Assembly (NCBI RefSeq): GCF_038637725.1
Contig: NZ_CP152052.1
Span: 3,789,001 to 3,853,000 of the forward strand
From: Psychrobacillus sp. FSL H8-0483
GTDB taxonomy: Bacteria; Bacillota; Bacilli; Bacillales_A; Planococcaceae
Reading direction: 5' to 3'
DNA length: 64,000 nucleotides
Shown here: positions 29,690-55,823 of the stretch, piece by piece
Layout: every line of letters starts with the position of its first letter
How positions within the stretch are numbered: position 1 is the stretch's first letter
Notes under the pieces: model-generated
The model's input: the letters and a program-made list of their open reading frames with translations, nothing else
Databases searched by the model: none
What the model was told of the DNA's origin: nothing
Program-made: the position numbers and the translations under genes

Positions 29690-29917
29690 TATATATTTTC
29701 TACGGAATAAAGTTTAATTGATTTCCGTTATAGGTGGACGCTTTCCGCGGGGTGAGCGATAAGCCATCACCACAGCTCATGCGTCGTTTGTGATGTCTTA
29801 TCTGTCTCACAGAAGAACAAAGGCTAAGAGCGCCACATCGTGTGGCAACGCCTTCGTGACCAACATCCTGTTGGCCTCCTCTGGAGTCGCCACCTGCCGC
29901 TTCCATCACACCCTATT
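29690..29917. repeat. Intergenic hairpin-rich repeat element
   Basis: It contains GCTTTCCGCGGGGTGAGCG, two adjacent perfect hairpins (GCCACA-TCG-TGTGGC and CCAACA-TCC-TGTTGG) and CTCTGGAGTCGCCACC. Related modules occur at 31202-31440, 37836-38025 and 38586-38750, and a deleted inverted relative lies at 55985-56075. The 69-codon frame inside it is not a gene. Confidence 0.7.
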
Positions 29918-31201: not shown

Positions 31202-31440
31202 TGTAAAACGATCATGTTGTCACCTGCCGAAAATCCGCTCGCTTTCCGCGAACGAACTGCCATGCCTCCTCTGAGCAACAGGATGTTGGTCACGAATCCG
31301 TTGCCACACGGATATGGCGATTTTAGGATTTGTTCCTATTAACTCGTTGCGGTCTCTTGGCAGCCCGTTTTTCCGCAGGAGTCTCGCGGATTCACGTCAC
31401 ACAAAATATTCTTCAAAAAAACAACAGCCTAATTTAAATG
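31202..31440 (-). repeat. Intergenic repeat element, larger relative of the 118-bp MITE
   Basis: Read on the minus strand it starts AAATTAGGCTGTTGTTTTT and ends ACAACATGATCGTTTTA, matching both ends of 14506-14623. Between them are GAGACTCCTGCGGAAA and the twin hairpins (GCCATA/TGTGGC type and CAACA-TCC-TGTTG) also seen at 29690-29917. It thus links the two repeat groups. Confidence 0.7.
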
Positions 31441-37835: not shown

Positions 37836-38025
37836 AATTCGGCAAGGACCGCCACTTCGCTTTCCGTGGGCTTGGCTTCAGCCTCGGGCCAACACGATGT
37901 TGGTCATGAAGGCGTTGCCGCAGGACGCGGCGTTCTTAGCCTTCCTTCCTAAAGCGTTCCTGCGGGGTCTTCTGCTCAAGCTGTTCCCACTGGAGTCTTC
38001 GTGGTGGTCCTTGCCAATTCCTTAT
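37836..38025. repeat. Intergenic hairpin-rich repeat element flanked by 15-bp direct repeats
   Basis: It has GCTTTCCGTGGGCTTGGCTT, hairpins CCAACA-CGA-TGTTGG and GCCGC-AGGAC-GCGGC, and CCTGCGGGGTCTTCTGCTC followed by CACTGGAGTC. The stems pair as in the 29690 element but with different bases. AAACTAGAAGGTTCA occurs at 37821-37835 and again at 38123-38137. Confidence 0.7.
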
Positions 38026-38585: not shown

Positions 38586-38750
38586 TGGCGTATTTACGTC
38601 CAGATTTTGAATCGTGCTTGGGCCTGCGTGATGCAGGTCAGTTAGCCGTTGTTGCATGGATGCGACGTATTTAGGCTAACATCCTTTACACCATTTCAAA
38701 ATCTGTGACATCCGCCGGAGGCTTTAACTTTATTCATCCTGCGTCCAAAC
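38586..38750. repeat. Diverged intergenic hairpin repeat
   Basis: It has hairpins CCTGC-GTGAT-GCAGG and GTTGCA-TGGA-TGCGAC (one G:T), then TTTAGGCTAACATCC. The spacing and order follow the 29690, 31202 and 37836 elements although most bases differ. Confidence 0.55.
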
Positions 38751-52975: not shown

Positions 52976-53689
52976 TTATAGTTGACGTAGTTCTTGCATG
53001 ATTTCTGTTTTAGATCTTGTTTTATCATCAATTTCTTTGATTACTTTAGCAGGTGTTCCAGCAACTACTGTGTACGGAGGAACATCCTTGGTCACAACTG
53101 CTCCAGCTGCAACAACGGATCCTTTACCAACTCGACAACCCTCTAGCACTACTGCATTTGCACCAATTAAAACGTCATCTTCTACGATTACTGGAGTTGC
53201 AGATGGTGGCTCAATCACACCAGCAAGCACTGCTCCTGCACCGATATGACAGTTTTTCCCGACAGTCGCACGACCACCCAGAATTGCTCCCATATCGATC
53301 ATCGTACCTTCACCAATAACTGCACCGATATTGATAACTGCACCAAGCATAATTATAGCGTTATCCCCAATACTCACTTGATCACGAATAATTGAACCAG
53401 GTTCGATACGAGCATTGATACCCTTCAAATCTAAAAGTGGAATAGCAGAATTTCTGCTTTCATTCTCCACAACTACGTCTTCAATTTTATTTTTATGTTC
53501 ATTTAGTAATGGTTCTATTTCAGACCACTCTCCGAATAATACAAGAGAACTTCCTTCACCAAATACCTTAGTATGTTCACCAAAGGAAAGCTGATCAATG
53601 CCATTTCCTTTTATGTATACCTTCACTTGTGTTGATTTTTTTGCATGTTGAATATACGAAATAATTTCATACGCATCAAGTTGTTTCAT
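52976..53689 (-). CDS. dapH: Tetrahydrodipicolinate N-acetyltransferase
   Basis: The 237-residue enzyme is a left-handed beta-helix acetyltransferase with many hexapeptide repeats ([36 protein letters not shown]) and an N-terminal DapH_N domain starting [13 protein letters not shown]. It transfers acetyl from acetyl-CoA to tetrahydrodipicolinate in diaminopimelate synthesis for lysine and peptidoglycan. B. subtilis DapH has 236 residues. The start is ATG 53689, eight bases after GGAGG. It leads dapH-dapL. Confidence 0.95.
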
Positions 53690-53885
53690 TCTCCATACCT
53701 CCTCAAAATATGTCCTTATTGTATACGAATTATTATAAAAAATCACGAATTATAATGCATTTCATTAATTTGTATTTAAAAATTATATATTTTCACACTA
53801 TTAGCAAATAAATCCTATGTCTTTAAACAACATTGTTACTGGTGCCAGGCACCCGTAATATTTTTGTAACAATCAGAAAGATATG

Positions 53886-53894
53886 TGGTATAAT
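53886..53894 (+). promoter_or_regulatory. Extended -10 promoter of the vmlR leader
   Basis: TGGTATAAT (TGn plus TATAAT) lies 270 bp before the vmlR start. A weak TTGTAA is 19 bp upstream of the -10. A GGTGCC-A-GGCACC palindrome (53840-53852) precedes it. Confidence 0.65.
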
Positions 53895-53922
53895 TCAGAT
53901 AACATATTTGAAGGGACGATGG

Positions 53923-54018
53923 GTGGACAATGGACTTATAATCTTATTTCTCAGTAGAAGTTTTTCTGCGATCCATTTTCGCAGTAACAAATTAAAAACT
54001 TTACGAAATCGGAAATAG
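53923..54018 (+). CDS. Possible 31-residue leader peptide of vmlR
   Basis: A small frame starts at GTG 53923, seven bases after AAGGG, and reads MDNGLIILFLSRSF at the start and KLKTLRNRK at the end. It runs through the first leader hairpin (53958-54001), as expected if ribosome position decides which RNA structure forms. An alternative 12-codon frame begins at ATG 53919 (MGGQWTYNLISQ), but its spacing to AAGGG is poor. Evidence is position and spacing only. Confidence 0.4.
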   Translation: MDNGLIILFLSRSFSAIHFRSNKLKTLRNRK

Positions 54019-54143
54019 GATTAGTCTGCCCATTTTTCAATTTAATACGGATAATTCTCTACAATGCTCTGAATTTGTAGTGGTTTTTTCGTATTCATTT
54101 AATGGTCAGCGATTCTTCCGATTCAATTCGGAGGGATTTTTTT
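53958..54143 (+). promoter_or_regulatory. Candidate ribosome-mediated attenuator upstream of vmlR
   Basis: Three structures follow in series: AAGTTTTTCTGCG / CGCAG...AAAAACTT (53958-54001), CTACA / TGTAG plus TTTTTT (54059-54089), and TTCCGA / TCGGAG plus seven T (54112-54143). The last ends 24 bp before the vmlR start. Antibiotic-resistance ABC-F genes of Bacillales are known to be induced by antitermination when a leader ribosome stalls. The order of elements fits that mode. Confidence 0.6.
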
Positions 54144-54167
54144 ATTCCTCCAAAGGGAGAGGATTGT

Positions 54168-55823
54168 ATGACATTACACGGTAAGTTAGTAGATATATGT
54201 ATCACATTTGGAGATAAAGTTATTTTAGGAAATATAAAAGCAGACATAGTCACAGGTACAGTAATAGGCATTGTAGGAGGAAATGGTGAAGGAAAGTCCT
54301 CACTTCTTTCTATCCTAGCAAATGAGACACTGCCCTCTAGTGGGAAAATAGAATGGTTCGGTAATACACCTTCCATCGGTTACTTTAAACAAGAAGATGA
54401 ACAATTTAGTAAATCCGATTATATGGAGGATGAATGGACGTACTTTAGCAAATGGTCCGTCCCCCATGGGCGCGAGTTCATCAACTTAAGTGGTGGAGAA
54501 AAAATGAAGAGAAGATTGTCTCGAGTGTTTGCAGAGAAGTCTCAGCTTCTTTTATTAGATGAACCAACTAATCACCTAGATCAAGAAAGTTTATCTTTCC
54601 TTAAAAAACAAATTAACTCCTATCCTGGAACGATTATTTTAGTATCTCATGATCGTTATTTCTTGGATGAAGTAACTGATTGGATATGGGAAGTTGAAAA
54701 TAAAAAATTAGCTGTATATGCAGGGAATTATTCTGAATTTCGACAAAAAAAAGAAGAAGCAAAGCTTACGCAACAAAGACTTTATGATGCACAACAATCT
54801 AAAATGCTTCAAGTGGAGAAGCAAATAACAGAGCTTCGAAACTGGTCGTCTAAAGCACATGCCGATTCGACAAAACATGAGTTCAATAAAGAATATTATC
54901 GAGTTAAGGCGAAGAAAATGGATGTTCAAATTCGTTCTAAAAAGAAACGACTAGAACTCGAGCTCTCCAAAAATACAATAGATAAACCCGAACAAGAAAG
55001 AGAAGTCAATTTTTCTATTGAGGGAAATAAGAAAAAAGGAAAACGCGTAATAGAAGCCCAAAATATGTGTAAAAGCTTCGAAGATCAGCTACTATTCCAA
55101 AATGCATCCTTCACAGTTCAGTCTCAAGAACGTATTGGACTTCTAGGTCCTAATGGAAGTGGCAAATCGACATTTTTCCGTATGTTGCTCGGAGAAGAAA
55201 GCGTACAAGGAGAGCTTTGGAAATCGGAAGCGATGAATATTGGTTATTTACGACAAACCGTATTTGACTTACCAGAGGAAAAAACACCTTTTGAATTTTT
55301 TGGACCAACTGATTTTGACAAAAGGGGTCAACTTCAGACACTTATGATGAATTTAGGGTTTTCTAAAGATCACTGGTCTCGTCCTATTCAAACAATGAGT
55401 ATGGGAGAACGTGTAAAGTTAAAACTAATGGAGTTTATGTTAAGTCAAAAGGACGTTTTACTTTTAGATGAACCAACAAACCATTTAGATCTACCTTCTC
55501 GTGAGCAATTGGAGAAAACCCTCTCCACATATCCTGGCACTATATTATTAGTGACGCATGATCGATACTTTTTAGAAAAGCTTACAAATAAAATGCTCAT
55601 TTTTGAAAATAAAACCATTCGAAAAGTTGAAATGAACTACAAAGAATGGATGAATAAATACAAAGAATCATCCCTCGAAAAAGAATTATTGAAATTAGAA
55701 ACTGAGCTACAAGCCGTGTTAGGTGAACTTAGCTACTTGAAAAAAAATGATCTTAAATACAGTGAGTTGGACAAAAAATTTATTTCACTGACAAAGCAGA
55801 TTAACAGTTTCAAGGAAAAGTAA
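54168..55823 (+). CDS. vmlR: Antibiotic-resistance ABC-F ribosome protection protein (VmlR-like)
   Basis: The 551-residue protein has two ABC domains and no membrane segments. Walker A motifs are GGNGEGKSS (about 37-45) and GPNGSGKST (about 325-333), with signatures NLSGGEKMKRR and MSMGERVKLK, and LLLDEPTNHLD twice. The linker has LRNWSSKAHADSTK and FNKEYYRVKAKKMD, close to B. subtilis VmlR (547 residues), which displaces lincosamides, pleuromutilins and virginiamycin M from the ribosome. The start is ATG 54168 after AAAGGGAGAGG. Drug range is inferred. Confidence 0.88.
   Translation: MTLHGKLVDICITFGDKVILGNIKADIVTGTVIGIVGGNGEGKSSLLSILANETLPSSGKIEWFGNTPSIGYFKQEDEQFSKSDYMEDEWTYFSKWSVPHGREFINLSGGEKMKRRLSRVFAEKSQLLLLDEPTNHLDQESLSFLKKQINSYPGTIILVSHDRYFLDEVTDWIWEVENKKLAVYAGNYSEFRQKKEEAKLTQQRLYDAQQSKMLQVEKQITELRNWSSKAHADSTKHEFNKEYYRVKAKKMDVQIRSKKKRLELELSKNTIDKPEQEREVNFSIEGNKKKGKRVIEAQNMCKSFEDQLLFQNASFTVQSQERIGLLGPNGSGKSTFFRMLLGEESVQGELWKSEAMNIGYLRQTVFDLPEEKTPFEFFGPTDFDKRGQLQTLMMNLGFSKDHWSRPIQTMSMGERVKLKLMEFMLSQKDVLLLDEPTNHLDLPSREQLEKTLSTYPGTILLVTHDRYFLEKLTNKMLIFENKTIRKVEMNYKEWMNKYKESSLEKELLKLETELQAVLGELSYLKKNDLKYSELDKKFISLTKQINSFKEK

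Follow-up and report, generated by a model that had tools for sequence, protein, structure and literature searches.

The vmlR Locus and Its Promoter

The window analyzed here is a 64,000-nucleotide (64-kb) stretch of the Psychrobacillus sp. FSL H8-0483 chromosome (NZ_CP152052.1). On its forward strand, at 54168–55823, lies a gene encoding an ABC-F protein of 551 amino acids. Specifically, the protein scores 459.5 bits against model NF000355 (cut-off 380), and the Vga, Msr, Sal, Lsa, and CplR models, which appear among the best 25 of the 158 families listed, score below their own cut-offs. The nearest solved chain is 6ha8_V (ExpZ), which we take to be VmlR of Bacillus subtilis, and the second nearest is 8buu_9. 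Identity to the Bacillus spizizenii homolog is 49%. The protein is a VmlR-type ARE ABC-F, with a putative role in resistance to pleuromutilins, lincosamides, and streptogramin A.

The start codon of the gene is the ATG at 54168. A leader of about 267 nt precedes it, close to the 270 nt proposed in an earlier note on this DNA; its presumed start, near 53901, is placed from the position of the −10 element. A divergent acetyltransferase frame, presumably dapH-like, occupies the other flank of the leader on the reverse strand (52976–53746). The forward-strand promoter (53866–53894) consists of a −35-like GTAACA (53866–53871) and, 17 nt further on, TATAAT (53889–53894) within the extended −10 element TGG-TATAAT. 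The earlier note had also named an extended −10 promoter, and comparison bears this out: by eye, a TG-N-TA...T box occurs at the equivalent position in 17 of 17 Psychrobacillus leaders, and an extended −10-like box lies upstream in 76 of 92 leaders from named relatives. Promoter patterns as such are at chance level in the region, with two sites versus a shuffle mean of 4.8.

Terminator-like sites exceed expectation between 53500 and 54400 (two versus a shuffle mean of 0.3). One is the terminator of the leader, described below, and the other is a palindrome at 53841–53853, upstream of the promoter. A palindrome built around GTGCCAGGCAC (53830–53871) adjoins the vmlR promoter and overlaps the −35-like box. 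The 11-mer GTGCCAGGCAC has 28 genomic copies (control, 0), 18 of them at 710–932 kb, and it forms the center of a palindrome of about 40–50 bp in the eight loci inspected. Elsewhere in the window, four copies of the Bacillaceae-1 RNA (RF01690) lie within 9 kb, at 29808–29874, 31275–31342, 37889–37955, and 38623–38690, one on the forward strand and three on the reverse.

A Cataloged RNA Family Upstream of vmlR

The attenuator part of the leader (53898–54143, forward strand) matches Rfam family RF02452 (ncr1575) over the full length of the model at 92.8 bits (cut-off 60). For the 64-kb window the E-value is 3.4e-13, placing the leader as a whole beyond chance. A second candidate identity, RF02450 (ncr1175), was dismissed at 23.7 bits versus a cut-off of 60. 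In B. spizizenii, an RF02452 match of 197.7 bits lies directly upstream of VmlR, and the protein there matches 6ha8. At E ≤ 0.001, the family is present in 36 of 61 relatives and in 150 of 200 genomes of the taxonomic family; among 14 control genomes it occurs in B. subtilis only. An order-level genome search, left out of these counts, returned same-family genomes only among the matches listed. Within the genus, the leader stands upstream of vmlR in 17 of 19 genomes.

One record falls outside this distribution by name. A sequence labeled as a Stenotrophomonas rhizophila plasmid (CP031730.1) carries an RF02452 leader (124.5 bits), and the gene after it bears the annotation ABC transporter ATP-binding protein. 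It is possibly Bacillales sequence under a wrong name.

Rfam types RF02452 as an sRNA gene. The notion that the leader works chiefly in trans, as a small RNA in its own right, accords with that label and with the abundant short transcript that attenuation would leave. We regard it as extremely unlikely: most of the loci grouped have a same-direction frame after the RF02452 match, 150 of 161 downstream frames encode ABC-F proteins, and the B. subtilis leader has been shown to function in cis (PMC9226507). Our analysis connects an Rfam entry whose only type label is sRNA with a drug-responsive attenuator of known mechanism.

Hairpins of the Leader and Their Alternatives

The reference for this device is the vmlR leader of B. 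subtilis, as presented by Takada et al. 2022 (PMC9226507). There, SL-1 is an anti-antiterminator that holds a three-codon upstream open reading frame (uORF), Met-Ile-Asn, in a bulge; SL-2 is a pause hairpin with the NusG motif TTNTTT; SL-3 is the terminator; and SL-4 forms on the Shine-Dalgarno sequence (SD). Drug-stalled initiation on the uORF opens SL-1, an antiterminator carrying SL-2 at its apex forms, and the terminator is avoided. The same report (PMC9226507) demonstrates induction, the requirement for uORF initiation, terminator function, and NusG-dependent pausing. The uORF was established by a toeprint and a start-codon mutation, its SD, AGAAGGG, by the toeprint, and the inducers are lincosamides, pleuromutilins, and streptogramin A.

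The minimum-energy fold of the window leader contains SL-1 to SL-4 in the published order, all on the forward strand. SL-1 (53919–54033) is formed by helices 53919–53928/54024–54033 and 53939–53950/54012–54023, with the uORF start in a bulge. SL-2, at about 54045–54095, includes T6 at 54084–54089, resembling TTNTTT; it is the mid-leader hairpin plus T6 of the earlier note. By analogy, it corresponds to the published pause hairpin rather than to a terminator. A TTNTTT follows SL-1 in 14 of 17 genus leaders and in 78 of 92 named leaders, which in such T-rich sequence is weak evidence for the predicted pause site. The intrinsic terminator SL-3 (54112–54143) comprises a hairpin at 54112–54137 and T7 at 54137–54143. 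It thus lies, as had been proposed, just before the ribosome site, GGGAGAGG at 54155–54162. Both SL-2 and SL-3 are supported by the fold and by pair counts. SL-4 (54144–54164) covers this vmlR SD, with 89.7% of cells paired across 17 leaders.

Two further pairings compete with these hairpins. The antiterminator (54010–54120) joins 54010–54014 and 54018–54022 with 54111–54120, places SL-2 at its apex, and is exclusive with both SL-1 and SL-3. A helix of 54130–54137 with 54144–54151 (99.3% of cells paired, 17 leaders) is a competitor of SL-4 once the terminator opens.

Both states are preserved within the genus. Among the 17 Psychrobacillus leaders used for pair counts (set A1), pairing holds in 96.5% of cells for the repressed structure (slid controls, 40–57%) and in 98.3% for the induced one (slid controls, 35–54%). 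Two of five shuffle measures are unexceptional in both tests: pairs in which both members have changed (value reached in 77 of 500 shuffles for the repressed structure and 455 of 500 for the induced) and further pair types (260 of 500 and 165 of 500, respectively). SL-1 exhibits no covariation within the genus because it hardly varies there. In a wider set, two-sided SL-1 changes occur at position 4 in 8 and at position 5 in 15 of 30 distinct core/partner combinations, and the pair is broken at position 9 in 10 and at position 8 in 5 of the 30; here the partner was the best match downstream, a choice that favors pairing. The 92 named leaders were selected for canonical SL-1 arms, so only the non-canonical leaders inform on covariation.

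A Three-Codon uORF as the Presumed Drug Sensor

The uORF in the window reads ATG GAC TTA TAA (Met-Asp-Leu; 53930–53941, forward strand) and is the presumed drug sensor. Upstream of it, GAAGGG (53910–53915) is the sequence counterpart of the B. subtilis uORF SD; the toeprint result is that of B. subtilis. The 14-nt spacing between GAAGGG and the ATG is unusually long, and it is identical in the B. spizizenii leader.

Conservation of the uORF can be judged from the named leaders, which were retrieved with a pattern specifying the SL-1 arms alone, with 65–95 free bases between them and no uORF condition. The pattern produced 96 loci. Four of these (L034, L052, L081, and L095, in records named Chloroflexi, Roseovarius, "bacterium," and Betaproteobacteria) were left out, as no leader follows the core. 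An ATG, two codons, and a stop are present in 91 of the 92 remaining leaders, and the last has an ATG and one codon. TAA serves as the stop in 89 leaders, TGA in 3. By contrast with this fixed length, codons 2 and 3 are variable: I, K, and D are commonest at codon 2 and N at codon 3. A broader collection of 169 leaders was reduced to 149 by leaving out 20 that were identical over a 102-nt key. Met-Asp-Leu occurs once among the 149; 140 uORFs have three codons, one has two, and eight fall outside the regular expression. Inspected by eye, the eight comprise four with three codons (L016, L143, L167, and L175), two with two (L012 and L169), and two that are not leaders (L164 and L168).

The comparison shows what selection has preserved, namely a bulged, unpaired start codon, two more codons of varied identity, and a stop within a helix. 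This pattern suits a sensor of stalled initiation, not of a particular peptide. Conservation of the TAA may partly reflect pairing, because the TAA sits within SL-1 while the ATG is in the bulge.

A longer frame also crosses this region. The earlier note had pointed to a possible 31-codon leader peptide, and the frame is indeed open in the window, from GTG 53923 to TAG 54018. It could be imagined that this frame (53923–54018) is the sensor, with drug stalling a ribosome as it elongates the longer peptide. However, the frame is not conserved: in the 17 Psychrobacillus leaders it measures 31, 30, 21, and 21 codons, and 11 codons in the other thirteen. A third frame, starting at ATG 53919, was also considered as sensor. 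It has 12 codons here, 4 codons (MGGQ, MGGL, or MGGR) in 11 of 17 genus leaders, and 11–24 in the rest. Both frames were rejected because their lengths are not conserved. The four-codon version of the ATG 53919 frame ends on the uORF start.

A Ribosome on the uORF Is Predicted to Flip the Switch

Folding calculations connect uORF occupancy to the choice between structures. In a nascent transcript from which the 5′ arm of the terminator has just emerged, antiterminator probability is 0.00 without a ribosome and 0.96 with a footprint, modeled as 31 nt, on the uORF ATG. When the SL-1 3′ arm is shuffled, the observed value is reached in 0 of 200 cases and a value of 0.5 in 33 of 200. The predicted response is widespread: under the footprint, antiterminator probability rises by more than 0.3 in all 17 genus leaders and in 86 of the 91 named ones. 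Of 169 leaders, 134 could be parsed and 35 could not; the rise is seen in 127 of the 134. Folding of the alternatives was one of the checks that had been suggested for this leader, and by calculation the folds are mutually exclusive and are switched by the uORF footprint.

Moving the footprint in 3-nt steps delimits the effective positions. P-sites at 53924–53939 give 0.82–0.96; the value is 0.15 at 53921 and 0.82 at 53924. A second interval, 53957–53960, yields 0.75–0.91, a few other positions near the 5′ end give 0.01–0.31, and every P-site from 53966 to 54059 leaves the antiterminator at 0.00–0.03. A footprint at the start of the GTG frame (P-site 53924, 0.82) or within the second interval thus also frees the antiterminator, whereas stalls over most of that frame, from 53966 on, do not. 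A distance of 7 nt separates GTG 53923 from the uORF ATG, so folding alone does not distinguish a ribosome held at the start of the GTG frame from one held on the uORF. Comparison does distinguish them: nearly all named leaders retain the tripeptide uORF, whose B. subtilis counterpart was demonstrated by toeprint and start-codon mutation (PMC9226507). We consider the 31-codon sensor very unlikely. A long leader peptide is a natural misreading of this sequence, and our analysis corrects it.

At equilibrium, with the terminator complete and the footprint in place, the terminator holds 0.72 and the antiterminator 0.27 in the window; the genus median for the terminator is 0.93. Because the terminator still prevails at equilibrium, the antiterminator can succeed only if it forms earlier, which agrees with the published model.

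Taken from this model, the proposed sequence of events is as follows. Without drug, ribosomes would translate and leave the Met-Asp-Leu uORF, SL-1 would form, and RNA polymerase would stop at SL-3. Lincosamides, pleuromutilins, or streptogramin A would hold an initiating ribosome on the uORF. The footprint of the held ribosome would open the base of SL-1, and the freed 3′ arm could then pair, around SL-2, with the terminator 5′ arm, so that transcription would go on past the terminator. The released 3′ half of the terminator would pair with the sequence that hides the SD, and the protein would be made.

We conclude, with a probability of about 0.9, that the leader is a vmlR-type ribosome-mediated attenuator of the Psychrobacillus chromosome; we infer its action in this strain and its inducing drugs. 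Ribosome-mediated attenuation had been the reading of the earlier note, and it gains support both from homology to the leader dissected in B. subtilis (PMC9226507) and from the folding tests. Since the same switch has been worked out for B. subtilis vmlR, the leader adds one more instance of an established device, here with a slightly rewired antiterminator.

Relatives of the Device

The bmrCD and vga(A) leaders control drug-resistance genes by ribosome-mediated attenuation. The msrD leader likewise regulates a drug-resistance gene in this manner. Takada et al. consider the msrD mechanism, a macrolide-specific elongation arrest, analogous and probably not homologous (PMC9226507). A parallel in layout comes from the Clostridioides difficile cplR leader (PMC10201436): a three-codon uORF (MRI there) and a terminator subject an ARE ABC-F gene to translational and transcriptional attenuation. 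Unlike in the window, the C. difficile terminator hairpin itself sequesters the SD.

Compared to the B. subtilis vmlR leader (Takada et al. 2022, PMC9226507), the window has in common SL-1 with a three-codon uORF in its bulge, the order SL-2, SL-3, SL-4, an antiterminator with SL-2 at its apex, and a VmlR-type ABC-F gene downstream. The differences are that the uORF encodes Met-Asp-Leu rather than Met-Ile-Asn, that SL-1 has a larger top with an extra hairpin in the window, and that the antiterminator has slid to a pairing of CGGAA-AUA-GGAUU with the terminator 5′ arm that covers nearly all of that arm.

A Predicted Slid Antiterminator in Psychrobacillus

The last of these differences appears to distinguish the genus. 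In the nine non-Psychrobacillus leaders listed, the antiterminator pairs GGATTAGTC with GACTAATCC or GGCTAATCC, involving mostly the outer part of the terminator 5′ arm. By eye, that outer box is present in none of the 17 Psychrobacillus leaders. Rather, the partner of AAUCCUUCCG in this genus is CGGAA-AUA-GGAUU. Coverage of the terminator 5′ arm reaches 0.8 or more in all 13 distinct Psychrobacillus leaders versus 1 of 93 others (L029, a same-family genome), and CGGAA is present in the arm in 13 of 13 versus 2 of 93. These counts leave out eight loci set aside beforehand as well as the unparsed leaders, and identical arm/terminator pairs enter once. The Psychrobacillus antiterminator is thus predicted to have slid to a register that takes in almost the entire terminator 5′ arm. 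We found no published report of such a slid antiterminator; the supplementary alignments of PMC9226507 lay outside the search.

Rewiring of this kind could also mark decay, that is, a relic in which the terminator is constitutive or leaky and no drug response remains. The loss of the outer pairing of Bacillus fits that explanation, as do the two G-U pairs that the window antiterminator contains between CGGAA-AUA-GGAUU and AAUCCUUCCG. Nevertheless, we judge decay unlikely to a high degree. Psychrobacillus has retained the leader before vmlR in all but two of the genomes surveyed, and with it the uORF, SL-1, the terminator, and the helix that frees the SD. The antiterminator core, CGGAA/UUCCG, shows no variation among the 17 genus leaders.

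The Leader before Other Resistance Genes

The RF02452 leader is not confined to vmlR. To assign downstream genes, the longest frame starting 100–900 nt into each leader was taken, and frames were grouped at 40% identity; one species may be in both collections. The 161 frames longer than 150 amino acids comprise 124 VmlR-type ABC-F proteins, 26 presumably Lsa-like ABC-F proteins (our label, from recall and the annotation of a relative), 5 lnu(G) products, 2 S41-peptidase-like proteins, and 4 frames that stand alone, with group identities resting on scans of one or two members per group. The four lone frames include one GNAT protein and one frame adjoining a below-cut-off match that is no leader. 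A GNAT acetyltransferase (L172, 2292–2493) and the S41-peptidase-like frames (L175, 2285–2492; L176, 2252–2458) are each preceded by a leader scoring above the cut-off, in place of an ABC-F gene.

The leader also stands before lnu(G), a transferable nucleotidyltransferase gene. An RF02452 leader with the uORF Met-Lys-Asn lies directly before lnu(G) on two Bacillales contigs (L063, 5644–5866; L059, 6392–6615; 126.5–139.6 bits) and on an Enterococcus faecalis plasmid (L155, 1481–1703; 139.2 bits). Its folding behavior is intact: the antiterminator rises from 0.00 to 0.65 with the footprint, and the B. spizizenii vmlR leader behaves alike in the same script. If the lnu(G) leaders work as folded, this transferable gene for lincosamide resistance comes with a lincosamide sensor of its own. 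A plasmid search with the window leader as query found nothing; the same search with the lnu(G) leader found matches. At least 80% of a 381-base query is present in 33 of 353 matching plasmid records, and at least 80% of a 271-base leader query in 41 of 235. In one Enterobacterales plasmid, lnu(G) is preceded by no more than the final 49 nt or so of the leader query, and the same holds for further records among those listed that share this match range.

Our literature search found, beyond two general reviews, no paper on lnu genes with a leader or attenuation, nor on vmlR with Psychrobacillus or lnu; the consulted part of PMC8615141 contains none of the words attenuat-, leader, promoter, or induc-. 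On balance, we lean toward the view that the vmlR leader is a portable cassette, sensing lincosamides, pleuromutilins, and streptogramin A, that may have been recruited by unrelated resistance genes (lnu(G), the Lsa-like ABC-F genes, and perhaps the single GNAT and the S41-peptidase loci), and whose antiterminator would have slid in one vmlR lineage, Psychrobacillus.

Finally, a candidate cfr leader on the Staphylococcus arlettae plasmid pSS-03 (L154, 1317–1534) was rejected, as it sits downstream of cfr (107–1153). It is a full-length RF02452 match of 110.7 bits. No gene of the same orientation follows it immediately and its uORF start is not recognizable, so it looks like an orphan leader.
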